From Anabaena subtropica FACHB-260 (lineage in GTDB: Bacteria > Cyanobacteriota > Cyanobacteriia > Cyanobacteriales > Nostocaceae), in NCBI RefSeq assembly GCF_014697105.1, contig NZ_JACJRF010000046.1, positions 1 to 44,977 of the forward strand: a stretch of 44,977 bases of DNA, written 5' to 3'. Of this stretch, positions 8,061-43,115 are shown one piece after another; position 1 is the first letter of the stretch, and each line of letters opens with the position of its first letter. The notes under the pieces are model-generated. The model searched no databases. It saw only the letters and a program-made list of their open reading frames with translations, and was not told the origin of the DNA. The translations under genes were made by a program, and so were the position numbers.

Positions 8061-10184
8061 TTAAACTACTTGAAAACTAAAGTTGAGACTTGCCCAGTTA
8101 TTGACGTCTAAGACATAAGAATCGGTAGCTGTGGTAGTTATTTCAGATGTGATTGCACTCCCATTGTGCAAATCTTGCAGTAGTGCTTGCCCAATTTCTA
8201 GGGGATTTACCAATGTAGCTATCGGTTGTTGGTCACCTGTGGAGTATTTGGCAGTTTCCAATGCTTTTAAGGTAATGCTAAAAGGTGTGGTGCTGAAAAT
8301 CAACTGGTGTTCGCATTCGTAGCTTGGGCCTGAAATCACCCATCCTGATGCAGGTTTCGCTTGTGGTAAGGTGACAGTCTCATTGGCGGGAATAACTATT
8401 TGTCTGAGTTGGGGTTGATTATCTGGATTGTTCGGTTCTTGAGAAGTTTGCCAAGGATAGAAAGCGATCGCAGTTCTATTATTTTTTAATCCCAAGAGCA
8501 TAAAATATACAGGGCGATCGCCTAAATTCTGCACGCGGTATTGTATCCGGCTACCAATAGGGACAATGTGACTACTGAGTGCTTTTTTCGTGACAGTTTC
8601 ACTGCGGAGAGTCCGTGATGTTTGCTGCTGCATCACTACCCGTGACGAGATACTATTGACAATCTCTAAATTTACCTTGATGGGTAAGCGGGAAGAGCCT
8701 TGATTTTCTGTAAGTCGCCATAACTTTGCTGCTAGGAGCGTTGATAATTTTCCTGATAATCTCTGTGCTGCTACTTTTACAGCTTCCCCAACTCCCCCAT
8801 CTGTGTTGGGAATTAGCTCACCACCCAAGGTAAAAAGACCGTAGCGACTGGGTATTTGGGTTAGTTTACCAAACAAGTAATCGGCTGGTTGTTCTCCGGC
8901 TACTACAGTGGAAATGTGACCAACTCCCGCAAAAGCACTTGTCGCGTCTACTCGCTCAATTCTTTCTAGTTTAGTATCTAAGGCTAGTATCAAATTAATA
9001 CTTCGGGGTAATACCCGCATAGTTTCTTGAATCAGTTGTCCAACTTGGATAGGAGTCGGATCTCCAACTTGAGAAATTTGGGCTTTTGCTGTTAATCCTG
9101 CAAGCGATCGCAATACTAATTGCGCTCCTGTTGCTAGAGTAAATCTAGAATTAACACTGTAATATGGCAAAACTTGAGCAGGTAGTCCCCCTAACCAGAT
9201 TTGCGCTGTTTTACCGTCTTCTTCTGTAGCCAGTATCGCTCCCTCTGCACCAGTACGGCTGTTTGGCAGTAAATTCTCAACAGTAACTACTTCCTGTTGA
9301 TTCTTCTTTTTACTCAATAACCCTGGCTGCTGGTTACTTCCCAATTGGTGTATGGAACTTTCTATATGGGAGAGGCTAACTTGAATTGTTGTTGCTGGGG
9401 TTGACTCCCAAAGTTGTTGTGTTAAAGCATAGGTCAATAAACCTGCACTAAACCCAGACATCAGCACTTCCCTAGCAGCCTGTTGCGGGTCTGAAGTAGC
9501 AGATAGGACTACAGTAGGACTGAGTTCAGGATTTTGGGTTTTGATTTGTTTGAGAAAATCGATTTCAGCTTGTACTAGTTGAGTTTTTGTAGATTCCTGA
9601 CGGGCGCGGACTCGCAAACTAGTAGGCTGGGTTGTGTTGGGAACAGAGTAACTAGTATCCAATACTGCTGTGACATGATCTGTAGGGAGCGATCGCAATA
9701 ATTGCAATAAAGTATCTTCTAATAAATAATTAGCTATTTGAGAATTTTGTGGTTCTTGATTTTCATCCGTTGTCACTAAAGCGTTTTGCAGTGTATTTGA
9801 TTCTACAGCTAACTGAGTACCGTAGCCGCTAAAGTGAAAAACCACCACATCCCCTGGTTTGGCTTGTTTGAGGAGGTGATCTAAAAAAGCTGCTTCAATA
9901 AATTCTCTGCTTGCTTGTTCCTCAGTTAACGTCAAAATATCGGCAGCTTGAAAGCCAAACCGATGCACTAACAGTTCTTTTTGCAATTCGACATCGGTGA
10001 GACAACCATTAAGTGAAGAACTGTTCCGGTATTGATTGATGCCGATTAATAATGCTAACTTTCGCGGTGTGGGTTGTGCTAAAGCTTGATAGTAGCGATC
10101 GCCCATAGTCAACCACTCAGCTTCAGTTAAACCCAACACTGCCAGTATTGAGCCAATCCGTTGTACAAAAGTCCGACGTTTCAT
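8061..10184 (-). CDS. Tat-exported caspase-fold (orthocaspase-like) protein, catalytic dyad replaced
   Basis: Caspase/C14-type domain (about residues 40-255) followed by a long C-terminal region with a DUF4384-like segment near 545-640. The N-terminus (MKRRTFVQRIGSILAVLGL) is a twin-arginine signal and ALA-Q near 36 is a plausible cleavage site, so it acts outside the cytoplasm. The domain has LALLIGINQY and GDVVVFHFSGYGTQ, but the catalytic His of SGHG is Tyr121 and the catalytic Cys of DxC is Ser178 (LDTSYS). It is therefore a 'YS' variant expected to lack protease activity, a class known among cyanobacterial caspase homologues. At 707 aa it is a full-length multidomain protein. Role unknown; scaffold or regulator is inference. 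Confidence 0.85.
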   Translation of the reverse strand: MKRRTFVQRIGSILAVLGLTEAEWLTMGDRYYQALAQPTPRKLALLIGINQYRNSSSLNGCLTDVELQKELLVHRFGFQAADILTLTEEQASREFIEAAFLDHLLKQAKPGDVVVFHFSGYGTQLAVESNTLQNALVTTDENQEPQNSQIANYLLEDTLLQLLRSLPTDHVTAVLDTSYSVPNTTQPTSLRVRARQESTKTQLVQAEIDFLKQIKTQNPELSPTVVLSATSDPQQAAREVLMSGFSAGLLTYALTQQLWESTPATTIQVSLSHIESSIHQLGSNQQPGLLSKKKNQQEVVTVENLLPNSRTGAEGAILATEEDGKTAQIWLGGLPAQVLPYYSVNSRFTLATGAQLVLRSLAGLTAKAQISQVGDPTPIQVGQLIQETMRVLPRSINLILALDTKLERIERVDATSAFAGVGHISTVVAGEQPADYLFGKLTQIPSRYGLFTLGGELIPNTDGGVGEAVKVAAQRLSGKLSTLLAAKLWRLTENQGSSRLPIKVNLEIVNSISSRVVMQQQTSRTLRSETVTKKALSSHIVPIGSRIQYRVQNLGDRPVYFMLLGLKNNRTAIAFYPWQTSQEPNNPDNQPQLRQIVIPANETVTLPQAKPASGWVISGPSYECEHQLIFSTTPFSITLKALETAKYSTGDQQPIATLVNPLEIGQALLQDLHNGSAITSEITTTATDSYVLDVNNWASLNFSFQVV

Positions 10185-10312
10185 AAAAACAATCAGTCCT
10201 CAGGTCGTCAGCTAACAGCTTATAGGGCTGAGGACTGGAGTGTAAACATACTTTGCCGATAATCCTGTTGGGGTAGGAAGATAGATGTTGCTGAATAGAG
10301 GGATTAAAATTT

Positions 10313-10356
10313 CTCCCCCTGCTTCCCCTGCTTCCCCTGCTTCCCCTGCTTCCCCT
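10313..10356. repeat. 9-bp short tandem repeat (GCTTCCCCT, four full copies)
   Basis: Four perfect head-to-tail copies at 10321-10356 preceded by a partial copy at 10313-10320. It lies between the caspase-like gene's start and the sat stop codon. Simple tandem repeats of this type are common between Nostoc genes. Confidence 0.9.
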
Positions 10357-10378
10357 GCCTGCCTTAACCAACCGTACT

Positions 10379-10415
10379 GGGAGTAGGGGGAGTCAAGAAT
10401 GTCTCCCCACTCTCC
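10379..10415 (-). terminator. Possible terminator of sat
   Basis: Imperfect inverted repeat GGGAGTAGGGGGAG / CTCCCCACTCTCC with a 10-nt loop, directly abutting the sat stop codon. The stem is GC-rich but there is no clear T-run, so factor-independent termination is uncertain. Confidence 0.4.
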
Positions 10416-11593
10416 TAAGCTAAGACCTGTACTCGCATTGCCCGCGCTAATTCTGCTGCTACTTCGGGACGGGAAAATTCTGGTGGGGGTAACTCACCGC
10501 GACGCAGCATTTCTCTGACTTTAGTTCCAGATAGGTGGACTCTTTCTTCTGGTTTGCTGGGACTGGTTTTGGTTGTCGCCATTTGTTTAGTGCGGGTGCA
10601 GTAAAAGGCGTGTTCAAATTTCATGGGTACAATGCCTAACTCACCAGGCTCAAATTCATCAAAGATATATTGAGCATCATAAGTTCCGTAGTAGTCACCC
10701 ACCCCGGCATGATCTCTGCCGACGATAAAGTGGGTGCAGCCGTAGTTTTTGCGAACTAAAGCATGGAAAATTGCTTCGCGGGGGCCTGCGTAACGCATAG
10801 CGGCGGGATTAATTGCCAAAATCACCCTGTCTTCAGGATAGTAGTGTTCTAGCAAAATTTCATAACAGCGCATCCGCACATCGGCGGGAATATCATCTTC
10901 TTTAGTTGCGCCTACCAAGGGATGTAAAAATAAACCATCCACCGTTTCTAAGGCACACTTTTGAATGTATTCGTGGGCGCGGTGAATAGGATTGCGGGTT
11001 TGAAAGCCGACGATGGTTTTCCAACCCTGCTCTCTAAACATCTGCCGTGAAGCAGCTGGGTCAATTTGATAATCGGGGAATAGAGGATGAGAATTGCGTT
11101 CTAGTAGCCAGATATCACCAGCCAGATTTACAGCGCCTTGGTTATATACTACTTGCACCCCTGGATGTTTGGCTTCATCTGTGCGATAGACATTGATGGC
11201 TTCACGGGTTTTATCGTAGCTATATTTTTGCGTGAGTTGCAAAACCCCGATGTATTCGCCTTTGGGGTTATCCAGACGAATTAAGCTACCTTCCTGTAAA
11301 GGAGAAGCCACTTCTTCGCTGACTGAGAGTGTAATTGGTATTGACCATACAAGACCGTTAGCCAAGCGCATTTCTGCAACCACGCGATCGTAGTCTTCCT
11401 GGTTCATAAACCCTGTCAGTGGGCTAAAACCACCGATTGCAATCATTTCTAAATCAGAAACGGCTCGTTCATCAAGTTGCACGCGGGGCAAGAAATCAGA
11501 TTTGGAAAGAAACTCTGCTTTTTGTTCTGGTGTGGCTATGCGATTAACCAACTGTCCACCGTGTGCGGCAATGGCATCTGGATGCTGACTCAA
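10415..11593 (-). CDS. sat: Sulfate adenylyltransferase (ATP sulfurylase)
   Basis: Forms adenosine phosphosulfate from ATP and sulfate, the first step of assimilatory sulfate reduction in the cytosol. Signature [12 protein letters not shown] (about residues 198-209) holds the HxxH-like nucleotide-binding motif. [12 protein letters not shown] and the C-terminal [10 protein letters not shown] are also typical. At about 392 aa it matches the homo-oligomeric bacterial/cyanobacterial form and has no APS kinase domain. The start is not an ATG: two in-frame TTG codons occur at 11599 and 11593. The GAGGGG just upstream gives good spacing only to 11593, and Met-Ser-x-His-Pro-Asp is the N-terminus I remember for homologues. 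It appears monocistronic. Confidence 0.93.
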
Positions 11594-12097
11594 ATTCAAT
11601 CCCCTCTTAGCGATAACTACAATTGTTGCAAACTATGTACTCACTAACTTATCAAAATGCTGTTACACAAAGAAAGAGATTTTGGCAAGTGAAAGATGAT
11701 GCTTGTCAGAATAACCTATGGAAAACTTTGATTTTCTCATCATCATGTACTCATACAGGAAAAAATCTCATCTCTCCGTGGGTGTGATTTTGCTAGCAGT
11801 ATGGTGATTGTAAAAGAAAAATAATTCACAAATAGATAATTAATTTCATGTAGAGATGTGATTCTCTCAATTTAGAGTAAGACGTGAATTCAAATTGTAT
11901 TTTTCAGAAAAATCACTGACTTAATTGAGTATTTGCGTCTCCCAAGTCAGGCAAGCAAATTTACACAAATTGCGAATGAATTAACTATTGACCACTCGAT
12001 ATTGTAGTAAGCAAGCAAGGAGTTGAACAGCCAATAAGAGGCAATCAACTAGGAGCTTACCGAGTGCAAAACTATTTTATCAATGGAGACAAGTTTC
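11594..12097. promoter_or_regulatory. Upstream region shared by sat and the peptide genes
   Basis: About 500 bp between divergently transcribed genes; it must carry both promoters. A 7-bp inverted repeat CTGACTT (11916-11922) / AAGTCAG (11944-11950) is present. No assured -35/-10 pair or NtcA-type GTA-N8-TAC site was identified. Confidence 0.4.
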
Positions 12098-12319
12098 ATG
12101 CTAGCTATTGTACAAAATAACCTGTTCACAGAAGTTGCTATTGAAGAATCTGCTACTGTTAGCGGTGGTCAAACTGATGTTAACTTTGACCTCAACGCAT
12201 ATTTGTTCATTGTAGGTGCTGGTACAGTTTTCGGCGCACCTGGATTAGCTGCTGATGAACTTCAGTTTGCTTTTGAAACTGCCGTTTCTATTGGCGATAA
12301 CAACAACGTAGGTCTGTAG
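12098..12319 (+). CDS. Double-glycine leader peptide precursor, copy 1
   Basis: A 73-residue precursor. The leader LFTEVAIEESATVSGG (Gly23-Gly24) is the classic double-glycine leader cleaved by C39 peptidase transporters. The core of about 49 aa is hydrophobic then acidic, with VNFDLNAYLFIVGAG, FGAPGL and a Asn-rich tail, and has no Cys. The upstream ATG at 12083 overlaps the GGAGA that serves as ribosome-binding site. The next copy has the same GGAGACAAGTTTC block without that ATG, so the start is 12098. It lies upstream of three more precursors and the exporter on the same strand. No modification enzyme is seen nearby, so it may be exported unmodified. Activity (bacteriocin, signal or surface peptide) is unknown. 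Confidence 0.85.
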   Translation: MLAIVQNNLFTEVAIEESATVSGGQTDVNFDLNAYLFIVGAGTVFGAPGLAADELQFAFETAVSIGDNNNVGL

Positions 12320-12340
12320 ATTTTCCGCAATAATTGCCTT

Positions 12341-12370
12341 GAAAAGCTCAGGAAATATTCCTGGCTTTTC
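12341..12370 (+). terminator. Hairpin between peptide genes 1 and 2
   Basis: GAAAAGC-T-CAGGAA / TTCCTG-GCTTTTC, a 13-bp stem with a one-base bulge 21 bp after the first stop. It has no long T-run. It could attenuate or stabilise the peptide mRNA rather than end it. Confidence 0.5.
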
Positions 12371-12422
12371 AGGCTAGTTTAATCAATAGTTCAAACCTAT
12401 CTTATCAACGGAGACAAGTTTC

Positions 12423-12641
12423 ATGCTAGCTATTGCACAAAATAACCTGTTCACAGAAGTTGCTATTGAAGAATCTGCTACTGTTAGCGGTGGTCAAACT
12501 ACTGTTAATTTTGACCTCAACGCATATTTGTTCATTGTAGGTGCTGGTACAGTTTTCGGAGCGCCTGGGCTAACTACTGATGAACTTCAGTTTGCTTTTG
12601 AAAGCGCAATCTCTATTGGCGATAACAATAACAACGGCTAA
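12423..12641 (+). CDS. Double-glycine leader peptide precursor, copy 2
   Basis: A 72-residue near-duplicate of the preceding gene with the same ribosome-binding block and leader. Differences from copy 1 are few: Val5 to Ala, Asp27 to Thr, Ala-Ala to Thr-Thr in the GL-xx-DE segment, and a slightly different Asn-rich tail. The repeat unit is about 325 bp, start to start. Double-Gly at 23-24. It is a recent tandem duplication by sequence identity, giving a two-copy or two-component peptide. Confidence 0.85.
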   Translation: MLAIAQNNLFTEVAIEESATVSGGQTTVNFDLNAYLFIVGAGTVFGAPGLTTDELQFAFESAISIGDNNNNG

Positions 12642-12705
12642 ATCGTGTAGTTTTTCCAAGTTATATCAATAATACTTCAGGGTTAATTCATTAAGTATGA
12701 ATTTA

Positions 12706-12743
12706 CTAAATACTGGAACATTTTTAATAGTTCCAGTATTTAG
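12706..12743 (+). terminator. Perfect 14-bp hairpin after peptide gene 2
   Basis: CTAAATACTGGAAC / GTTCCAGTATTTAG with a 10-nt AT loop. It is a strong stem without a following T-run. It separates the duplicated pair from the third precursor and may be an mRNA 3' end or stabiliser. Confidence 0.55.
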
Positions 12744-12800
12744 ATTAATACCCTAAGTAGAAATGAATTGAGCTATTACTTTTTTCAAGGAGAGAGACTA

Positions 12801-13064
12801 ATGAAGGAAAATAGCCTTTTTTTTAAAACACTGAGTGCTGAAGAGTCTTGCGCTGTTAACGGCGGTACTAGTACGCCAATGTTTGTTTTAGATCCTACAA
12901 ATAGAAATCAAGGAGGTCAAATTCTGAACGTAGACGGCCGTGGTAATTCAATTACTATGTCTGGCTCTGAAAATGCTAATGGCAATAATAATAACACTAT
13001 TAATCCCTTGCAATTAGCTTTACCTATGCCAGAGGTAGCTATGCAGAACAACAATTCAAAGTAA
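12801..13064 (+). CDS. Double-glycine leader peptide precursor 3 (Asn-rich core)
   Basis: An 87-residue precursor starting at the ATG after AAGGAGAGAGACTA; the in-frame ATG at 12768 has no such site. The leader is LFFKTLSAEESCAVNGG (Gly21-Gly22), clearly related to its neighbours. The core is different: hydrophilic, rich in Asn, Gly and Ser, with NANGNNNNT, and ending MQNNNSK. Its only Cys is in the leader. The shared leader implies the same exporter; the unrelated core implies a different role. Confidence 0.78.
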   Translation: MKENSLFFKTLSAEESCAVNGGTSTPMFVLDPTNRNQGGQILNVDGRGNSITMSGSENANGNNNNTINPLQLALPMPEVAMQNNNSK

Positions 13065-13168
13065 TTAGTTGAAAATTAAATAACTAATTACTGAAAAACA
13101 TCATTGTTTAATTAATGCTCCAGGTTTGTCAAATATCTGATCGTTAAACCTATCCTTAAGAGGAAGCG

Positions 13169-13444
13169 ATGAAAGAACAAAACCCACTTTTTACAGAACT
13201 ATCTTCTCAAGAATCTGCTGTCGTCAGTGGAGGGAGAAGAGTTAGTTTTGACTTAGATACTTACTTATACATTTTGGGTGCTGCTGTGTTATTTGGCAAC
13301 CCTGGACTTACTTCAGAAGAGATTCATTTTGCTTGGACACAATCATTCATTTTTTATGATGATACATTAAGTGATAATGATAGCAGTATAGGTAGTGGTA
13401 TAACTAGAAGAAGTTCAAGACGATCAACCAATTTTGGATTTTAG
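13169..13444 (+). CDS. Double-glycine leader peptide precursor 4
   Basis: A 91-residue precursor with AAGAGGAAGCG before the ATG. The leader is LFTELSSQESAVVSGG (Gly21-Gly22). The core start VSFDLDTYLYILGAAV, then FGNPGL and EEIHFAW, lines up with VNFDLNAYLFIVGAG, FGAPGL and DELQFAF of copies 1 and 2. It is thus a diverged paralogue with an added Ser/Asp/Arg-rich tail of about 30 residues. It lies 72 bp upstream of the transporter gene. Confidence 0.8.
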   Translation: MKEQNPLFTELSSQESAVVSGGRRVSFDLDTYLYILGAAVLFGNPGLTSEEIHFAWTQSFIFYDDTLSDNDSSIGSGITRRSSRRSTNFGF

Positions 13445-13516
13445 TTTGATGGAATAAATCACGAATCAAGAGCAAGATTTTCAAGTTTTTAATCTAAAAA
13501 ATAAGCATTTTGCTTT

Positions 13517-15667
13517 ATGAAATACATTCACGTTTTACAGCACACTCAAGAAGATTGTGGTGCTGCTTGTATTGCGGCGATCGCCAAATATTATGGACGC
13601 AATTTAACTCTCAGTCGCATTCGTGAAGTTGTCGGTACAGGACAATTTGGCACAACTTTATTAGGACTACAAAGAGGAGCGCAATCCCTCGGTTTTAAAG
13701 CTCACTCTGTGAAAACTTCGCCGGAACTTTTAAACAGGATAAATGAAGCGCCTTTACCAGCTATTATTCATTGGAAAGGTAATCATTGGGTGGTTTTTTA
13801 TGGTAAAAAAGGTAAAAATTATGTAATAGCTGATCCAGCCGTAGGTGTTCGTTATTTGTCACCACAAGATTTAAGTGAAGGCTGGAAAGATTGGTTAATG
13901 CTTTTACTTGAGCCAGATCCAGAATTATTTTCCCAAGGTGAAGCAGATCGTGTTCCTAGTTTTTGGCGTTTCTTCAAGCGTGTCTGGAATTTTCGCTCAA
14001 TTTTAGCTCAAGCTTTACCACTCAATTTGCTTCTGGGAGTTTTATCATTAGCTTCCCCTTTTTTACTGCAAATTCTCACGGATGATGTGCTAGTTCGTGG
14101 TGATACAAGACTACTGACAACTATGGCGATCGCTGTCGTAGTGATGAATATTATTTCTAGTAGTCTTGGTTGGGTACAATCTAACTTAATTGCTCACTTT
14201 GCTCAACGCTTGCAATTAGGTTTAGTCATGGATTTTGGGCGACAAATTCTGCAATTACCTCTAAGTTATTATGAAGCGCGTCGCAGTGGAGAAATCGTTA
14301 GCCGTCTACAAGATATTAATCAAATTAATCAATTAGTTGCTCAAGTTGTTATTAGTTTACCTAGTCGTTTTTTCATTGCATTAATCTCTTTCGGTATCAT
14401 GGCTTTCTATAGCTGGAAATTAACTATAGTTGCTATGTTCTTAGCGGTCATGATGACAACATCTACAATTGTCTTTCAGCCGACTTTGCGAAATAAAACC
14501 CGTGAACTTCTAGTCCAAGAAGCAGAAACTCAAGGTGTTTTAGTAGAAACTTTTAAAGGGGCTTTAACTGTTAAAACTACCACATCAAGTTCACAATTTT
14601 TAGATGAATTTCATAGTCGATTTGGTCAATTAGCTAATTTAGCATTCCGTACCATGCAAATTGGCATTATCAATAATAGTTTTTCTGGATTTGTTTCTGC
14701 AATAGGTAGTGTGTTCTTACTCTGGTATGGTGGAAATTTAGTAATTAATCCGGTGGAGAATTTGAGCATTGGTCAACTATTAGCATTTAATTCAATGAAT
14801 GCTAACTTCCTCGGTTTAATTAGTACTGGAATCAGTTTTGTTGAAGAATTTACCCGTGCAAAAACATCTGTGCAACGTTTGACAGAAGTTATAGACGCTA
14901 CACCAGAAAATGAAGGTGATGGTAAAAAGCCTTTTGCTAAAATTTCCGGCAATGCTGATATTATCTGTACAAATGTCAATTTCCATTATGCTGGTCGGAT
15001 TGATTTACTAGAAGACTTTACTTTAAAAATCCCTGGTGGTAAAGTCACTGCTGTTATTGGTAAATCTGGTTGTGGTAAAAGTACTTTAGCTAAACTAATA
15101 GCTGGGTTATATACCTTACAATCTGGTAATATTCGCATCGGTTTATATAACCTAGAAGACTTATCTCTTGATTGTCTCCGTCAACAAGTAGTATTGGTTC
15201 CTCAAGATGCTCACTTTTGGAGTCGTTCGATTGTCGAAAACTTCCGTTTAGGTGCGCCATACTCTACTTTTGAACAAATAGTTAGGGCTTGTCAAATTGC
15301 TCAAGCTGATGAATTTATTAGTAAATTACCAGATAAATATCAAACGGTGTTAGGAGAATTTGGTGCAAATATTTCTGGTGGACAAAGGCAAAGATTAGCC
15401 ATAGCACGAGCAATAATTACAGAGCCACCAATTTTAATTTTAGATGAATCTACTGGTGGTCTTGATCCAGTCAGTGAAGCGCAAGTTTTAGAGCAATTAT
15501 TGCAGCATCGCCAAGGTAAAACCACAATTTTAATTAGTCACCGTCCGAAAGTTATTAGTCGGGCTGATTGGATTGTTTTACTAGAGCAAGGTAGGTTAAA
15601 ACTTCAAGGTTCATTACAAGATTTACGTACCCAAACTGGAGAGCATTTAGATTTTTTAATTCCTTAA
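13517..15667 (+). CDS. C39 peptidase-containing ABC transporter (double-glycine peptide exporter)
   Basis: Bifunctional inner-membrane exporter that cuts double-glycine leaders and pumps the peptide out. An N-terminal C39 peptidase occupies about residues 1-130, with catalytic Cys14 (QEDCGAAC), His in GNHWVV and Asp in IADPAVG. A six-helix ABC membrane domain runs at about 160-440. The nucleotide-binding domain has Walker A GKSGCGKST (about 515), signature ISGGQRQR (about 619) and Walker B ILILDEST (about 640). At 716 aa it has the full PCAT length. It is immediately downstream of four matching precursors and 17 bp upstream of the HlyD adaptor, so the locus is self-contained apart from an outer-membrane TolC, which must come from elsewhere. 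Confidence 0.93.
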   Translation: MKYIHVLQHTQEDCGAACIAAIAKYYGRNLTLSRIREVVGTGQFGTTLLGLQRGAQSLGFKAHSVKTSPELLNRINEAPLPAIIHWKGNHWVVFYGKKGKNYVIADPAVGVRYLSPQDLSEGWKDWLMLLLEPDPELFSQGEADRVPSFWRFFKRVWNFRSILAQALPLNLLLGVLSLASPFLLQILTDDVLVRGDTRLLTTMAIAVVVMNIISSSLGWVQSNLIAHFAQRLQLGLVMDFGRQILQLPLSYYEARRSGEIVSRLQDINQINQLVAQVVISLPSRFFIALISFGIMAFYSWKLTIVAMFLAVMMTTSTIVFQPTLRNKTRELLVQEAETQGVLVETFKGALTVKTTTSSSQFLDEFHSRFGQLANLAFRTMQIGIINNSFSGFVSAIGSVFLLWYGGNLVINPVENLSIGQLLAFNSMNANFLGLISTGISFVEEFTRAKTSVQRLTEVIDATPENEGDGKKPFAKISGNADIICTNVNFHYAGRIDLLEDFTLKIPGGKVTAVIGKSGCGKSTLAKLIAGLYTLQSGNIRIGLYNLEDLSLDCLRQQVVLVPQDAHFWSRSIVENFRLGAPYSTFEQIVRACQIAQADEFISKLPDKYQTVLGEFGANISGGQRQRLAIARAIITEPPILILDESTGGLDPVSEAQVLEQLLQHRQGKTTILISHRPKVISRADWIVLLEQGRLKLQGSLQDLRTQTGEHLDFLIP

Positions 15668-15684
15668 ATATCACTTGATAAAAT

Positions 15685-17064
15685 ATGCTGTACATTCAAA
15701 ATAAAAAATATATCCCACCACTTCAAGATGATGATGCTTTACCACCAGTTGGTATTTGGACATCTTTATTAGGGTTATTTCTGGTAGCGTCTGTTGGTTC
15801 AGCGATCACCCTATCTTCTTGGGTGAAATACAATGTCACTGTCAAAGCACCTGCGGCTTTCCGTCCTACAGGTGATGTACGGTTAGTCCAACCAGAAATG
15901 GAGGGGACTATTCAAAATATTTTTGTGACAGAAAATCAACTTGTCAAACGAGGTGATGCGATCGCTTCTCTGGATACAGATCAATTGCAAATCAAAAAGA
16001 GTCAACTGGAAGGTAATATTCAACAAAGTAGATTGCAACTCATCCAAATTGATGCTCAAATCAACACTTTAGATAGTCAAATACAAGCTGAAACTAACCT
16101 GATAGAAAGAACAATTGCTTCGGCTCAGGCAGATTTAGCACGAAACCAACGAGATTATCAAGATAAACAAATTACCACACAAAGCGAATTTTTGGCTGCT
16201 CAGGCAAGTTTGCAAAAAGCCACAGCCAATTTACGCAAAGCCAAGGCTGATTTAAATTTTGCTCAAGTAGACCGCGATCGCTATCAGCAGTTAACAGAAA
16301 TTGGGGCTATTGGTAGACGGGAGTATGAACAGAAAAAACTTGTTGTAGAACAGACTCAATCAGCATTGGAAAGCGAAAAAAGGTCTGTGGAAATTGCTCA
16401 AGCCCAATTGCAAGCAGCCCAAGCTGTAGTTAATCCTAGCATGGCAACGGTGGCGATCGCTCAAGCACGAGTTGCCCAGGAACGTGCTAGGGGTGCATCT
16501 AACACCGCCATATTAAATAAAGAGAAACAAGCTTTAATTCAGCGCCGAGTGGAAATGTTGTCCCAACTCAACCAATATCAAAAAGAATTACAACAAGTAG
16601 AAAAGCAATTGCAAAGTGGTATGATTCGCGCTACCAGCGATGGAATTATCTTGAAGCTGAATTTGCGAAACTCTGGTCAAGTGGTACGCATCAGCGAAGC
16701 GATCGCAGAGATTGTACCACAGAATACTCCTCTATCAATTAAAGCTATGGTTTCCACCGCAGACATTAAAAAAGTGGAGATAGGGCAAAAAGTCCAATTA
16801 CGAGTTAACGCTTGTCCCTATCCCGATTACGGGACTCTCCCAGGTGTGGTTAGTGCTATTTCTCCCGATGCGATTACACCCCAAAACCAAAACGCAGCTA
16901 ACTATTTTGAAGCAACCATCCAACCCGAAAAGATGGAATTTGGCAATGGCGATCGTCAATGTCACATCACATCAGGTATGGAAGCAGAAGCAAATATCAT
17001 TTCTAAGGAAGAGACAGCACTGCAATTTATACTACGAAAAGCGAGACTCATCACTGATTTATGA
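15685..17064 (+). CDS. HlyD-type periplasmic adaptor of the peptide exporter
   Basis: Membrane-fusion protein of a type I secretion system; bridges the ABC exporter to an outer-membrane TolC-like channel. It has one N-terminal membrane helix (about 27-45), a biotinyl-lipoyl-like segment around residues 65-95, a long Gln/Ala-rich coiled-coil hairpin (about 100-300) and a C-terminal beta domain with GTLPGVVSAISPDAI. The length of 459 aa is normal. It starts 17 bp after the transporter stop, consistent with an operon. Confidence 0.9.
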   Translation: MLYIQNKKYIPPLQDDDALPPVGIWTSLLGLFLVASVGSAITLSSWVKYNVTVKAPAAFRPTGDVRLVQPEMEGTIQNIFVTENQLVKRGDAIASLDTDQLQIKKSQLEGNIQQSRLQLIQIDAQINTLDSQIQAETNLIERTIASAQADLARNQRDYQDKQITTQSEFLAAQASLQKATANLRKAKADLNFAQVDRDRYQQLTEIGAIGRREYEQKKLVVEQTQSALESEKRSVEIAQAQLQAAQAVVNPSMATVAIAQARVAQERARGASNTAILNKEKQALIQRRVEMLSQLNQYQKELQQVEKQLQSGMIRATSDGIILKLNLRNSGQVVRISEAIAEIVPQNTPLSIKAMVSTADIKKVEIGQKVQLRVNACPYPDYGTLPGVVSAISPDAITPQNQNAANYFEATIQPEKMEFGNGDRQCHITSGMEAEANIISKEETALQFILRKARLITDL

Positions 17065-17772
17065 GTAGGGAAGTATGCAGTGAATACAACACTTTTTATT
17101 TGGATGGAGTACACCACTTTAGCCTTTTTTTCCTATGAATCTGTACTGCAACCAGAGAGAAGCTTTATCTGACAGGTGTAACGGCGTGGCAAAAATAAAA
17201 TGATGCAATAGATTTAGGGACTTCCAGATAAAAAAATATCCAACTAGGTTGGGTGCGTCAGTGCGAGAAAACTTAGCTGTAACAAGAAGTTATTCATACT
17301 GACGCACCCTACTAACCGTCAATTTGGAATAATTTATTTTTTGGTGTTCCCTTAAATAAAATTTACCACCCATGTACGCAGATAAATGTTGATAATAAAC
17401 ATTAAAAAAAGAATACCTCCAACTAAGTATTGTTTCAGGGAAAAATATATTTTTCCCTGAAACATCTTATTTTGTCAGCATAAATCGACGGTTAATTTAC
17501 TTTGTATATTTGCGAATATACCAAAAGAAATAAATTCTCTAATTAATATATAGGGTAAAAAAGATAAAAATTACATTCACTAATTAAAATATTATCCATA
17601 AAAACTACAATGACATTTTTTGATAAAAAAATGTAAATTTTAGACACTTGATTTGTCATAAATATATCGTGAATTACTTAATATTTTTCTCCTATTATAT
17701 AAAAACAGCTAACACATCAGTTTTGTATTTATAAACCTGAGTAAACAAATTATACTTTTAAGTGTCTGAGTT
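17065..17772. other. Long AT-rich gap after the exporter operon
   Basis: About 700 bp with no gene. It holds the inverted-repeat element at 17247-17316 and further AT-rich sequence with several short hairpins, including GGGAAAAATAT / ATATTTTTCCC at about 17439-17459. The promoter of the histidine-kinase-like gene should lie near its right end. Confidence 0.5.
17247..17316. repeat. Small inverted-repeat element (GGGTGCGTCAGT termini)
   Basis: GGGTGCGTCAGT at 17251-17262 pairs with ACTGACGCACCC at 17298-17309, and outer GGTT/AACC extends the stem with a bulge. The 35-bp interior is unpaired. Its size and termini resemble small non-autonomous dispersed elements of Nostoc; a related but imperfect one is at 31614-31680. 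Confidence 0.65.
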
Positions 17773-18432
17773 ATGACCATAATTCCTTTTATGACATCCT
17801 ACCATCGAGTTCAAAAAGCATTACAATGGTGGTCTTATAGGCAGTCAGCCAAGCTATTATTGGAAGCTGAACAAATTCGGGATGGTCTGTTACAGGAAAC
17901 TTTCACAATGCGGCGTAACTTAGATTTGTTATTTTTAGATAATATAAACTTACCAAATGACAAAGCCCAAGACTCTTTAAAAAGAATTGAAAACTTTCAT
18001 CATTCTTTAGTAAAATTAAGCGATCGCTTATTTCCCGAATCACTTCAAGATAGTTTTCCTTTAGCAATTGAGTCTTTATTAGAATCTTGGTTGGCATCTA
18101 ATCCCCACATATATTTTCATATAGATATGCCAATTTATTGGCGATATGAACCAGGTGAGAGAGGTTTAATAATTTTAACTTTATTAGAAGAGTTTTTGAC
18201 AATAAGTTTGTCAGAAATATCCATACCTACTTCATTGTATTTAAGCTTAAAATTAAAAGATAATACAGGGATATTAACTGTAAAAATTACTTACTCTCAA
18301 ACATCATCATTTTTTGTAACTTCTGGCTTGACAGAATTAGATTACCTTTGCCAGACTTGCCGACTATTAACATCAGGCAAATGTTTTTATCATGCTCATG
18401 ATTTTACAATTTCCTGGTCTTTCTCTTGGTAG
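17773..18432 (+). CDS. Degenerate histidine-kinase-like protein
   Basis: A 219-residue soluble protein. The segment EAEQIRDGLLQETFTMRRNL (31-50) resembles the dimerisation helix of NarL-partner kinases (HDGLLQ), but the phospho-acceptor His is Arg36. The second half (LLEEFLTISLSEIS, then LYLSLKLKDNTGILTVKI) has the periodicity of a HATPase domain but lacks a recognisable N-box Asn and the DxGxG loop. It should therefore not autophosphorylate. It directly precedes a response regulator and a kinase with a real His, suggesting a role as regulator or adaptor. The relation to kinases is my own pattern reading and needs a profile search. Confidence 0.6.
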   Translation: MTIIPFMTSYHRVQKALQWWSYRQSAKLLLEAEQIRDGLLQETFTMRRNLDLLFLDNINLPNDKAQDSLKRIENFHHSLVKLSDRLFPESLQDSFPLAIESLLESWLASNPHIYFHIDMPIYWRYEPGERGLIILTLLEEFLTISLSEISIPTSLYLSLKLKDNTGILTVKITYSQTSSFFVTSGLTELDYLCQTCRLLTSGKCFYHAHDFTISWSFSW

Positions 18433-18541
18433 AATTCGACATTATTCTATTAGGATAAACTTGAATAAATAGTTATGTAGCAAACAATTAACTTCAGACG
18501 AAAAGTAACAAGTTGTTTATCTAATTGATGTGGTGTGAATT

Positions 18542-19219
18542 ATGGAACAAACTACACCTGAAAAAGCATTACTTAACTTCTTAGTAATTGATGACCATGA
18601 ATCAGTTCTGAGTGGAACTGTCGAGATACTACGAAGACATTACCCAACATCTGAATTTGTTACTGCTATTAATGCTGAAAATGCTTATCATCAATTGACA
18701 AATTTACAGCCAAACCTCCTAGTTATGGATCTTTCTATTCCTGAAAAATCAGGAATCGTAGCACGTCCAGATACAGGTGTGAAACTTCTCAGAACACTGA
18801 TGAAAAACTATTCCAGTTTGAATATCATTGTGCAGAGCGCTCATATTAGAACTTTAGTGAGAATTAGACCTGATATTGACACTCATAAAGGAGGATTTAC
18901 AGTTGCAGATAAAAGCCTTTCTACTCAAGAAATGTTGACTAGAGTCGATTGGGCATTGCAGGGATTAACTCATACAAAAGACATTAAAGGAATCCATTCT
19001 GGATTAGAGATTAAACCAGAGTGGTTAAAAGTACTAATTCTTGCTTTTGAAGAAGGATTACAAGATAAGGCAATCGCTGAAAAAATGTGTATTTCAGAGC
19101 GCATGGTGCGCCATTATTGGAGTAAATTACAAGATGCTTTAGATGTTTACCCTGATGATGGAAAAAATATCCGCATTCAAACTGAGAAACGGGCTAGACA
19201 AGCAGGGTTGATTGATTGA
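18542..19219 (+). CDS. LuxR/NarL-type response regulator
   Basis: REC domain (about 11-140) with Asp17-Asp18, phospho-acceptor Asp63 (VMDLSIPEKSG), switch Ser99 and Lys124. It is followed by a C-terminal LuxR-type helix-turn-helix (DKAIAEKMCISERMVRHYWSKL, about 175-197). At 225 aa it is typical. It should bind DNA when phosphorylated by a partner kinase, most simply the one encoded 115 bp downstream. Its placement after the peptide export operon makes that operon a candidate target, but no binding site is visible. Confidence 0.88.
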   Translation: MEQTTPEKALLNFLVIDDHESVLSGTVEILRRHYPTSEFVTAINAENAYHQLTNLQPNLLVMDLSIPEKSGIVARPDTGVKLLRTLMKNYSSLNIIVQSAHIRTLVRIRPDIDTHKGGFTVADKSLSTQEMLTRVDWALQGLTHTKDIKGIHSGLEIKPEWLKVLILAFEEGLQDKAIAEKMCISERMVRHYWSKLQDALDVYPDDGKNIRIQTEKRARQAGLID

Positions 19220-19333
19220 TTTGTAATTAACATTAAATGACTATGAGTTATTGATCAATGGTAACTAGTTTGTGTTTTCATGATTAAATAATCCCTACCA
19301 CTTGCTAATATCAAAAGACTAGGAGAAAAGCCT

Positions 19334-20416
19334 ATGCAACCTGGACTTTTCAGCATAATCAAAGCAGAAGTTTCCATCTGGCGTGTAAGTATATTACCAG
19401 AAATTGCATTAATTTGGCTAAGAATTTTTACACGAATTATTAGTGTAAGCCAGTCTTTAAAATTGCTGGTTTTTGATAAATTATTCCATTGGCGAACTAA
19501 GAAATGTACAGATCCAAAAATTATTCGGGTGGATATTCATAAAGAGAATAGACTTAAGCAGCTTATAAATGATGGAAAATCTCAAACTTATCAACCCAGA
19601 CTTTTTGGTCTAGCCATTGTGAGTTTATTGATTATCAGCTATGTACTCTTAATATGGGGTTGGTGGATTCCCGTCATACCAGCAATGTTAATTTTGATTA
19701 TCAATTGTATGCAAATCATGGCTTTATATCAATATGACCAAGCTTTGAAGTTAGGAATGGGAACTCGCCAATCTATTATTGAAAGTACTTTTGAAACAAT
19801 TCATAATGGACCACTACAAAGTTTAGCTAAAGTGTTAAAATTAGTCAAATCTCAGGACATAAATACCCAAGAGTTACTACCCCAAATTGAAAAAGAGCTA
19901 GAAAAATTAAATTATGAACTTAGAGGTATTTATGAATTTTTACAACAAGAGTACCCAAGTCAAGACATTAAGCTTTATTTGGGAAATAATTTAGTATTAA
20001 ATTTACAAGACCCACTGCATGAAGTTCTCTATCAGGTTTACAGCTACACTTTAGAGAGAGATTTTCCTTGTTTTAAAACTGTTAAAGTTGCCATTCGTAG
20101 TTTTGATCCTATAGACGAACGACACTTAAGTATTGAACAAAAACGAGGAATTTGTAGATTTTTAGAAGAAGCTTTATGCAATGTAGGTAAGCACGCCACG
20201 GGAGTAAGCAAACTCCAAGTTACTTGCTCATTAATACAAGGTTGGTACACTTTAAAAATTATAGATAACGGCTCAGGAGCAAATCTATATAAAAAGGGAC
20301 GGGGAACCCAACAATCTATTAATTTAGCACAACAACTCCAAGGTAAATTTGAGCGATCGCCCGTTTTTCCCCAAGGAACTATTTGCAAATTATCTTGGCG
20401 CGTAGCCAACAATTAG
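19334..20416 (+). CDS. Membrane histidine kinase with collapsed CHASE2 sensor
   Basis: Starts at ATG after AGGAGAAAAGCCT. An N-terminal hydrophobic stretch and LLVFDKLFHWRT...TDPKIIRVDI (45-68) look like the beginning of a CHASE2 domain. The sequence then jumps to two membrane helices (about 90-130) that normally close a CHASE2 module, so roughly 200-250 residues of extracytoplasmic sensor seem missing. The DHp helix has His157 in ETIHNGPLQSL. The ATPase domain has EALCNVGKHATG, DNGSG and GRGTQ. It is therefore catalytically plausible but lacks its ligand domain. The pairing with the upstream response regulator is by position. Confidence 0.8.
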   Translation: MQPGLFSIIKAEVSIWRVSILPEIALIWLRIFTRIISVSQSLKLLVFDKLFHWRTKKCTDPKIIRVDIHKENRLKQLINDGKSQTYQPRLFGLAIVSLLIISYVLLIWGWWIPVIPAMLILIINCMQIMALYQYDQALKLGMGTRQSIIESTFETIHNGPLQSLAKVLKLVKSQDINTQELLPQIEKELEKLNYELRGIYEFLQQEYPSQDIKLYLGNNLVLNLQDPLHEVLYQVYSYTLERDFPCFKTVKVAIRSFDPIDERHLSIEQKRGICRFLEEALCNVGKHATGVSKLQVTCSLIQGWYTLKIIDNGSGANLYKKGRGTQQSINLAQQLQGKFERSPVFPQGTICKLSWRVANN

Positions 20417-20506
20417 GTTGACAGCACTTTTCATGGCAAATTGCGAATTGTTTTTCATCTCTACCTGATAAAATTGTGTAGAGCTAAATTTTATGGGTTA
20501 AAAGCT

Positions 20507-41388: not shown

Positions 41389-42096
41389 ATGGTGAACAAA
41401 ATGAAAACTTTCAATAACGTAGGTCGCGGAATAGCTTTAGCTACCAGCACTTTGGCTTTAGGTTCTGCCTTAGCTGTATCATCTAACATTTCATCTGCTC
41501 AAGCAGCAGTAATTGGTACCTTCAACGGTACTGGTACAGCTCTGATTGGCAATCTCACTGAGGCTTCACCCGTTACAGATACAATTTCATTTACCGGACC
41601 TTTCTCTCTTGACCCAACAAATAGTGGTATATTTGCTGGTCTGGGTATTGTCAGCATCAATACCATTAACGTAGACACTCCAACTTTCATAGCCAACGTT
41701 CCTGGCATAGGAAGCCTCACCAGCTATGTAGCTAATGGTGTTGGCACTCCACTGATTAATTTCACCGGTGGTTACAGCTTCGTAGCTACTGAACCTTTCG
41801 CTGCTTTGAGAACATTTAACCCCGCAGCTCCCGGTGGTACTAACGTGGGTTACTCATTTGATTTGGTGGGTCAATTGTTTAATGGGGCTGGTGAATTCGT
41901 AACATCAGGACTTTTAACTGCCAATGAAATCAATAATCCTGATCCCGAAAGAGGTAGCTTCTCCTTATCATTGACCGCTATCGAAGCAGAAAGAGTACCC
42001 GAACCTACAACCACAGTTGGATTGGCTGCTTTAGGATTGGGCGCGTTCTTCACCAACAACTTGGCTAAAAAGAAGAAAGCAAAAGTAAACGCTTAA
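41389..42096 (+). CDS. PEP-CTERM exported protein, paralogue 1
   Basis: A secreted protein of 235 aa. The signal peptide runs MKTFNNVGRGIALATSTLAL to a likely AQA-A cleavage near residue 41. The mature part is a Gly/Asn/Thr-rich beta-type domain. The C-terminus has VPEPTTTVGLAALGLGAFF then KKKKAK: the PEP-CTERM sorting tail (PEP, hydrophobic helix, basic end) recognised by exosortase systems. No exosortase is in the window. A second in-frame ATG at 41401 (after MVNK) is conserved in the paralogue too, so either start is possible. Confidence 0.88.
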   Translation: MVNKMKTFNNVGRGIALATSTLALGSALAVSSNISSAQAAVIGTFNGTGTALIGNLTEASPVTDTISFTGPFSLDPTNSGIFAGLGIVSINTINVDTPTFIANVPGIGSLTSYVANGVGTPLINFTGGYSFVATEPFAALRTFNPAAPGGTNVGYSFDLVGQLFNGAGEFVTSGLLTANEINNPDPERGSFSLSLTAIEAERVPEPTTTVGLAALGLGAFFTNNLAKKKKAKVNA

Positions 42097-42413: not shown

Positions 42414-43115
42414 ATGGTAAATAAAATGAAAGATTTCCAGAACATAGGCCGAGGCTTAGAATTAGCTACCAGCACTTTGGTTTTAGGCTTTGCCTTAGCT
42501 GTATCATCAAACATCCCATCTGCCCCAGCAGCAGTAATAGGTATATTTAACAGCAGTGGTACTGCTCTGATCAGCAATCTCACTGTTGCCTCACCTCTAA
42601 CAGATGTAATTTCATTTACTGCTCCTTTTACTACTAATTCGGCAAGTGGTATATTTAATGGTCTGTCAATTAGTTCCATCTCTAAAATCAATGTAGATTC
42701 GCCAACCGTATTAGGCACAATTCCTGGTATTGGAACACTCACAACCTATACAGCTAAAGCTTCTGACTCACAATTTATTACTTTTAATGATGGTTCAAGT
42801 TTCGTTGTTGAAAATCCTTTTGCTGCTCTAAGAACATTTAACTCTGCGGCTCTTGGTGGTAACAATGTAGGATATTCATTTGATATGGCAGGTAACGTTT
42901 TCAATGCGTCTGGCTCATTCATCAGATCAGGAATTCTTACTGCAAATGAAATCAACAACCCTGATCTAGAAAGAGGTAGCTTCTTTTTGACCCTGACTGG
43001 TATTTGTTGTACCCCAATACCTGAACCTACATCTACAGGCGCACTTGCAATTTTAGGATTGGGAGCTTTAGCTTTTTCACAAAAAGTAGTTTTGCGAAGA
43101 AAAAGCGAAAAGTAG
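42414..43115 (+). CDS. PEP-CTERM exported protein, paralogue 2
   Basis: A 233-residue tandem paralogue of the preceding gene, alike along its whole length: signal peptide (LATSTLVLGFALAVSSNI), VENPFAALRTFN, NNVGYSFD and ANEINNPDLERGSF. The tail is PIPEPTSTGALAILGLGALAF then RRKSEK. It has a Cys pair (ICCTPIP) before the PEP motif that paralogue 1 lacks, and AQA at the signal cleavage is APA. It was probably duplicated long ago; each copy is separately transcribed judging by the terminator between them. Confidence 0.87.
   Translation: MVNKMKDFQNIGRGLELATSTLVLGFALAVSSNIPSAPAAVIGIFNSSGTALISNLTVASPLTDVISFTAPFTTNSASGIFNGLSISSISKINVDSPTVLGTIPGIGTLTTYTAKASDSQFITFNDGSSFVVENPFAALRTFNSAALGGNNVGYSFDMAGNVFNASGSFIRSGILTANEINNPDLERGSFFLTLTGICCTPIPEPTSTGALAILGLGALAFSQKVVLRRKSEK

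Follow-up and report, generated by a model that had tools for sequence, protein, structure and literature searches.

The window analysed here (44,977 nucleotides, contig NZ_JACJRF010000046.1 of Anabaena subtropica FACHB-260) carries at 12098-20416 what we read as a two-component-controlled secretion cassette for unmodified, Cys-free small proteins, with surface or matrix assembly outside the cell as their most likely role; we put the probability of this reading at about one half. An earlier note on this DNA had described a compact export locus with four double-glycine (GG) precursors. The list of open reading frames (ORFs) and Pfam confirmed the four precursors at 12098-17064, together with a peptidase-containing ATP-binding cassette transporter (PCAT) and an HlyD-family adaptor; however, a three-gene regulatory module and a promoter motif shared with related loci appear to belong to the locus as well and would extend the unit past 17064 to about 20416.

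According to the proposed mechanism, a signal acting on the histidine kinase (HK) encoded at 19334-20416, and modulated by the putative pseudo-kinase OrfX, would change the phosphorylation of the response regulator (RR), which would then bind the motif at 11896-11911 and switch on the precursor operon. The PCAT would cleave each precursor after its GG pair, and the core would leave the cell via HlyD and an unlinked TolC-like channel. The predicted products, unmodified, Cys-free and 48 to 69 residues long, would have fixed roles, namely, one or two abundant short A-type proteins, one B-type protein, and one long A-type protein with an Arg-rich tail, and the hairpin at 12706-12743 may set the dose of short A above that of B, long A and the exporter. 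Outside the cell they would form a mixed surface or matrix assembly comparable to that of EbfG1-4 of Synechococcus elongatus. The genes, their order, the motif, the hairpin and the selection on the cores are read from the sequence; from these we infer cleavage, export, binding by the RR, the roles of orfX and of the hairpin, and the extracellular function.

Four precursors of two conserved families

All features of the cassette lie on the forward (+) strand. Precursor 1 (12098-12319), of the short A type, consists of a 24-residue leader and a 49-residue core, and precursor 2 (12423-12641), its near copy and also short A, has a 48-residue core. Precursor 3 (12801-13064), of the B type, has a 22-residue leader and a 65-residue core, and precursor 4 (13169-13444), of the long A type, has a 69-residue core with an Arg-rich tail and is the last before the exporter. 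The start of precursor 1 is more likely at 12098 than at 12083, because a Shine-Dalgarno-like GGAGA (12085-12089) is found 8 nt 5' of 12098.

The leaders, of 22 to 24 residues with GG at the end, are 48 to 96% identical among the four precursors; cores 1, 2, and 4 are 44 to 88% identical to each other, while core 3 differs (27 to 31%). The earlier description of a common leader followed by two core types is thus borne out, as is the statement that the cores (5.0 to 7.8 kDa) lack Cys (0/4) and that no modifying enzyme is seen nearby, from which the suggestion of unmodified secreted peptides can be strengthened to probably unmodified. The earlier note had also set apart precursor 3 as a lone Asn-rich core. 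This orphan reading was rejected, since precursor 3 is a member of a conserved B family (alignment A3, 15 sequences) carrying I-x-NVDGxGxxV and LALP. The A family, which comprises cores 1, 2, and 4, has the consensus FDLNxYLFILGAGVVFGNPGLTxDExQFAWExAF (alignment A2, 27 sequences from the window and loci of the related-locus search only, with one short-A precursor of L122 left out). Hence, "three related plus one odd" stands as a grouping but is better read as a fixed order, i.e., short A peptide(s), hairpin, B peptide, long A peptide, with a B-type precursor present in 15 of 19 distinct A-type loci.

The FDLxxYL core could not be assigned to a named family, in agreement with the earlier note: no Pfam or NCBIfam model matched it above cut-off, PADLOC gave no match for precursors 1, 3, and 4 (the ones tested), and neither did a fold comparison with the PDB, the leader region alone touching the model of the CTB bacteriocin family below its cut-off. 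No NCBIfam or Pfam match to the NHLP and Nif11 (N11P) families was found in the four precursors. The core motif was sought next to C39 transporters, a check proposed earlier. It stands there at 19 A-type loci, the window among them, and also in a genome from another family. Of 59 genomes searched, the own one included, 10 contain strong core relatives (E 1e-16 or better) adjoining the same exporter; this, like the purifying selection on the A-type cores (below), speaks against chance. An A profile at E 0.01 matched 34 of 388 cyanobacterial genomes sampled; in G556, which belongs to another family, and in three members of the window's genus the matches extend well into the core, and the others are weak and mainly in the leader.

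In G556 (L257 / L283), the A-type core FDLDKYLFVLGAGVTFGNPGLTPDEV adjoins a PCAT of 62% identity, with no match to the regulator, the motif or the hairpin. Judging from this arrangement, A cargo is moved or kept independently of the regulator.

A constant export frame with changing cargo

The PCAT (13517-15667) is of the short type, with C39 peptidase (Pfam C39, E 4.8e-35), ABC membrane (ABC_membrane), and ABC ATPase (ABC_tran) domains and without CAP_ED, and its translation contains what we take to be intact catalytic and Walker motifs. The HlyD-family periplasmic adaptor is encoded alongside it at 15685-17064 (HlyD_3, 2.4e-19). LanM, a second ABC transporter, an S8 peptidase and SurA were not found, either with Pfam among the nine proteins of 12098-20416 or by eye among the ORFs of at least 110 amino acids (aa) in the rest of the window. 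The only + strand ORFs of 40 aa or more from the precursors to orfX are those that overlap named genes.

Related loci were compared by taking as the close set the best 80 of 218 RR relatives found in named genomes, which are almost all Nostocales by record titles and whose kinship was reduced by simple grouping only. With PCAT presence set at an identity of at least 70%, the 80 loci contain PCAT in 70, HlyD in 72, orfX in 71, and HK in 80 cases; among the 73 with at least 6 kb upstream, PCAT is present in 69, the exceptions with room being L133, L144, L151, and L181. Read off the coordinates, the genes follow the window's order; the HK gene is inverted in L147 and L150. The dehydrogenase gene at 20441 was rejected as a member of the unit, as it adjoins in 0/80 loci.

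GG precursors matching a strict leader pattern were identified in 66 of the 70 PCAT loci, 176 in all, four of them with core Cys; this pattern misses the window's precursor 3, so its counts run low, while a loose pattern admits an uncounted number of false ORFs. Cargo of the window's A type is present in 11 named loci (L115, L119-L123, L149, L154, L170, L177, and L178), with a B precursor in 10 of them. Where at least two strict precursors occur, the last before the PCAT is longer than the others (64 versus 58 residues; n 55 versus 110) and more basic (median charge +2 versus -3, same n; p 7e-7). In L129 (1241-3738, Scytonema sp. NIES-4073), seven nearly identical tandem precursors share one exporter, and the first of them scores as CTB. 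On these comparisons, export and control genes are constant and the exported cargo differs among relatives.

Other PCAT loci (L240-L253, 59 to 65% identical), from several other cyanobacteria, have GG precursors with Tyr/Arg-rich or SVNQTVNVNV-type cores, which by eye look like fibrous or matrix proteins.

The regulator module

Three genes follow the exporter. orfX (17773-18432) encodes a probable pseudo-histidine-kinase with DHp-like helices and an ATPase-like fold, in which Arg replaces the phosphoacceptor His. Its structural model has a predicted local distance difference test (pLDDT) score of 71, and the 50 top PDB entries listed all are histidine kinases or contain a kinase-like module, at modest TM-scores of up to 0.49. 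The motif IRDGLLQ in OrfX corresponds to HK IHNGPLQ, and by eye the Arg is at the phosphoacceptor position in 20 of 21 sequences, L124 having His. Profile proof of this kinship was not obtained, since hhalign gave a probability of 0.1 and no significant match, so that the case draws on the model and this one motif. The RR (18542-19219) has a receiver domain (Response_reg 2.4e-9) and a probable LuxR/NarL-type helix-turn-helix (GerE 0.014, below cut-off; alignment A1). The membrane HK (19334-20416) matches kinase models of Pfam below cut-off. Of the CHASE2 sensor domain seen in its relatives (E 2e-55 in L060), it has lost the greater part and keeps a 38-residue remnant. Of 78 named loci that could be decided by a match of at least 120 aa, 56 have CHASE2 and 22 lack it; exporter and GG precursors are kept in 19 of the latter.

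The RR was found at E 1e-30 in 131 of 388 cyanobacterial genomes. We examined 40 distant RR loci, some on short contigs, and detected a PCAT at 70% in 0/40 and a strict GG precursor in 0/40, although L218 has an ABC transporter of 34% identity at a distance of about 6 kb and L228 a fragment of 28%; a CHASE2 kinase matched in 33/40 and orfX in 20/40. Some of these genomes have a related PCAT elsewhere. By this distribution, the regulator module is older than its link to the exporter. Hik36-Hik43/Rre6 was rejected as the same system, being of the CheA/PilG type in the literature covered.

A promoter motif shared by cargo and regulators

The motif TGTATTTTTCAGAAAA at 11896-11911, 202 bp upstream of the first precursor, is the candidate RR binding site. 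It scores 22.0 of 27.8 with a position weight matrix (PWM) at p 0.0025, a value that is not independent as the site belongs to the training set. Between motif and gene, a TATTGT at 12000-12005 may point to a transcription start some 85-90 nt before precursor 1. Words of 8 to 10 bases from TGTATTTTTC[AG]GAAA are common to 16 to 19 of 30 redundancy groups of upstream regions, compared with at most 9 in ten shuffles in blocks of two bases. Allowing up to two mismatches, 55 of 65 loci have the motif in the 400 bp before their first precursor, usually 165 to 205 bp away and ahead of unrelated cargo types, and in L152 and L162 most precursors have their own copy. The window's copy is exact at 11896, the exact 15-mer is unique in its genome, and one-mismatch copies elsewhere in the genome number three, versus two for the reversed control.

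The PWM was trained on 57 precursor sites and then tested elsewhere, with significance at p 0.01 or less against 200 to 400 first-order Markov copies (only 60 for the further PCAT loci). In the close loci it detects sites upstream of orfX in 19/71 cases (0.7 expected, median offset -185) and none upstream of RR (0/79), HK (0/80), or HlyD (0/72); the 8/70 positives upstream of PCAT are, in the loci checked, a second copy between the last precursor and PCAT. In the distant loci, which have no exporter or GG gene in the examined stretch, sites precede orfX in 6/20, RR in 7/40 (median -65), and HK in 2/33 cases, and the orfX and RR tests pooled give 13/60 positives versus 0.6 expected, over mutually non-independent loci. 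Two orfX sites (L220 and L233) contain the dyad TGCAG-TTTT-CTGCA. Because a PWM trained on precursor promoters also finds regulator-operon promoters, even at distant exporter-free loci, the motif is probably the RR binding site.

If, instead, the regulators just happened to lie next to the export genes and the motif had come down with the exporter as a promoter element unrelated to the RR, the common descent of all loci and the 52 of 71 close orfX promoters without a significant site would be accounted for, but not the sites before orfX or RR at distant loci. Nor do other PCAT loci carry the element: among those of 54 to 65% identity, 35 of 36 testable lack it, L241 being borderline, in genomes with and without the RR alike, and they were rejected as motif carriers (L272, with no upstream sequence in the right place, is not among the 36). 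We hold this explanation to be very improbable. Three of the 40 further PCAT loci, with PCAT at least 73% identical (L275, L276, and L279), keep the motif with the RR on another contig; the separation is clear for L275, whereas in L276 and L279 the PCAT is near a contig end and the separation may reflect assembly breaks.

A pheromone circuit was also considered, in which the linked kinase would sense at least one of the cores, in most relatives by way of an extracellular CHASE2 domain, and the cassette would be autoinduced. Pheromone systems of the ComC/ComAB/ComDE type have GG peptide, PCAT, HK, and RR in one locus. The window is alike in this respect, the exporter, GG peptide, HK, and RR forming one conserved unit. 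The candidate site stands before the cargo and, in 19 of 71 close loci, before the regulator operon, where the window's own promoter gives no significant hit. The window differs from Com-type systems in its longer peptides, multi-copy cargo, NarL-type RR, and truncated CHASE2-type HK. The remaining membrane part of the HK may still sense a signal, but exporter and GG cargo are kept in most loci without CHASE2, the HK is kept while the cargo changes, A cores also occur in G556, where no RR is matched at E 1e-30, and the products of 48 to 69 aa are partly multi-copy. On balance, we deem such a circuit unlikely. A bolder version, of a portable sense-and-secrete cassette, seems to us decidedly unlikely: an old cyanobacterial CHASE2-kinase/pseudo-kinase/RR module would have joined a GG exporter in Nostocales and would drive interchangeable cargo from one motif, with exported peptides feeding back on the kinase, at least in relatives with intact CHASE2. 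If true, such feedback would amount to a circuit for cell-cell signalling by peptides in cyanobacteria.

A conserved RNA hairpin within the precursor array

Between the short-A genes and precursor 3 lies a conserved RNA stem-loop of 14 pairs (12706-12743). Counterparts are found at the corresponding place in 17 distinct A-type loci, window included. In 14 of the 17 a B precursor comes next; L066 and L069 have another type there, and in L070 it is the last precursor that follows. Over the 17 sequences, 97.9% of 238 cells are paired, with 20 G.U on the mRNA strand and 5 unpaired. Four pairs changed on both sides (reached in 36/500 shuffles); the covariation score was reached in 0/500 and the number of further pair types in 140/500 shuffles, and all slid controls were far lower. 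Among the 59 genomes, a covariance model matched 10, and these are the very ones in which strong A-precursor matches occur; its 13 places all lie at A-type loci and within precursor arrays, the L061 and L071 copies being weaker. A further match occurs in L164, where the cargo is at most distantly A-like.

Several identities were tried and rejected, namely, a dispersed repeat (the hairpin occupies one place in its own genome), a DNA dyad (on the mRNA strand, G.U cells number 20 and unpaired ones 5), an Rfam family (nothing at gathering score), and a classic terminator (no U tract). Since it is without a U tract, we take the hairpin to be a putative mRNA processing or stabilising element that may raise the short-A dose.

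Function of the exported proteins and relation to known systems

By domain content, the architecture of the window is that of a group III PCAT cassette. Group III bacteriocin-type clusters have a short C39-ABC transporter with HlyD, no second ABC transporter, and an average of 3.89 GG precursors per cluster (Wang, Fewer, Sivonen 2011, PMC3140520), and the window is alike in all these respects, including several GG precursors. In the main text covered of that paper, no linked regulator module, promoter motif, or hairpin was found and "CHASE2" occurs 0 times; its clusters may include relatives of the window's precursors. Similar in layout and size are the EbfG1-4 proteins and the exporter PteB of S. 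elongatus PCC 7942, where four small GG proteins of 6 to 7 kDa, close to the window's core sizes, are encoded in an operon with a C39 exporter; EbfG1-3 are amyloid-forming and EbfG4 is on the cell surface (PMC4997328, PMC9981879; covered in part). A linked pseudo-HK/RR/HK module was not found in the literature covered on that system.

By analogy with EbfG, we consider the products more likely to be surface or matrix proteins than bacteriocins or pheromones. A multi-subunit product fits the tandem near-identical cargo, the longer basic last precursor, and the lack of an extra ORF between precursors and orfX. The surface or matrix role is favoured because of the multi-copy cargo, the purifying selection, the lack of a separate immunity ORF, and the dissimilar partner peptides. 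The A-type cores are under purifying selection: the ratio of nonsynonymous to synonymous substitution rates (dN/dS) is 0 to 0.69 in 13 A-type pairs and 0.2 for the cores of precursors 1 and 2. Of five B pairs, four range from 0.37 to 0.62 and one reaches 0.96. Some of the dS values behind these A and B ratios approach saturation.

Alternatively, the cores may be unmodified class II-type bacteriocins or microcins that kill or inhibit related cyanobacteria, the differences in cargo reflecting competition. Such clusters were named bacteriocin clusters by Wang et al. (PMC3140520, covered in part), the cargo turns over under a conserved exporter, and CTB-family precursors (NF038167) stand at the same place in relatives, with the same exporter frame and a similar leader; in the literature covered, phosphate starvation induces one CTB operon in Nodularia, and no activity of a CTB peptide was found. 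Against the CTB model, whose cut-off is 32 bits, the window's own precursors 1, 2, and 4 reach 13.9 to 19.6 bits in a match confined to residues 1-35, and precursor 3 gives none; at E 0.01 the model matches three of the 27 A-type sequences. The dN/dS values give overall no sign of diversifying selection, one B pair at 0.96 notwithstanding, and the stretch between cargo and regulators lacks any distinct ORF of 40 aa or more that could serve for immunity, although shorter or unlinked immunity genes may exist. We consider a bacteriocin role less likely than not.

Several results weigh against a regulated cassette for surface or matrix proteins. As for its function, the CTB cut-off is exceeded by 7 of 10 precursors scanned, in 6 of 8 other loci; the basic character of the last precursor holds as a trend over the loci, and the window's core 4 has a net charge of -2 despite its Arg-rich tail; the EbfG amyloid hotspot motif was not seen by eye in the window's cores; and the AlphaFold2 model of precursor 4 is poor (pLDDT 64), with no fold match in the PDB at E 0.001. 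As for its regulation, the distant loci behind the pooled motif count are not independent of each other, and p 0.01 is not reached by the 52 of 71 close orfX promoters already mentioned, by 14 of 20 distant orfX promoters, or by 33 of 40 distant RR promoters. The window's orfX promoter is among the non-significant ones (p 0.09), so that autoregulation finds no support in the window. Finally, export and regulator halves are probably separate operons, because HlyD and orfX are separated by a 708-bp gap with a terminator-like hairpin (17431-17464, a 15-bp stem followed by TCTTATTTT); terminator-like sites in the region, four observed versus 5.1 in shuffles, are not above shuffles.

GG-peptide clusters are widespread in cyanobacteria (PMC3140520, covered in part). 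The open-licence literature searched, of which we further drew on parts of PMC9260433, PMC7656254, PMC3091678, PMC10986499, PMC9846622, and PMC3720943, already describes the group III architecture, while the regulator linkage, the promoter motif, the hairpin, and the A and B cargo families were not found in it and are apparently new within that scope. For one GG-peptide cluster, the present analysis names a particular regulator along with its probable binding site and a conserved RNA element. To our knowledge, the signal that switches on most cyanobacterial GG-peptide clusters is not known. Constant control and export genes with changing cargo make the locus suited to studying why cyanobacteria swap the small proteins that they secrete, and if the cargo is a matrix protein, the EbfG case would extend to filamentous Nostocales.

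Neighbouring genes

Upstream of the cassette, caspase-like/CHAT-type and sulfate adenylyltransferase-like genes (8061-11599, by eye) adjoin it also in L062, L067, and L068/L115, and this neighbourhood marks a shared place in one clade. At the left contig end (97-2557), Tn7-like transposition genes of the TnsB/TnsC-like type were recognised by eye, as were, at 41389-42096 and 42414-43115, tandem secreted proteins with PEP-CTERM-like tails.

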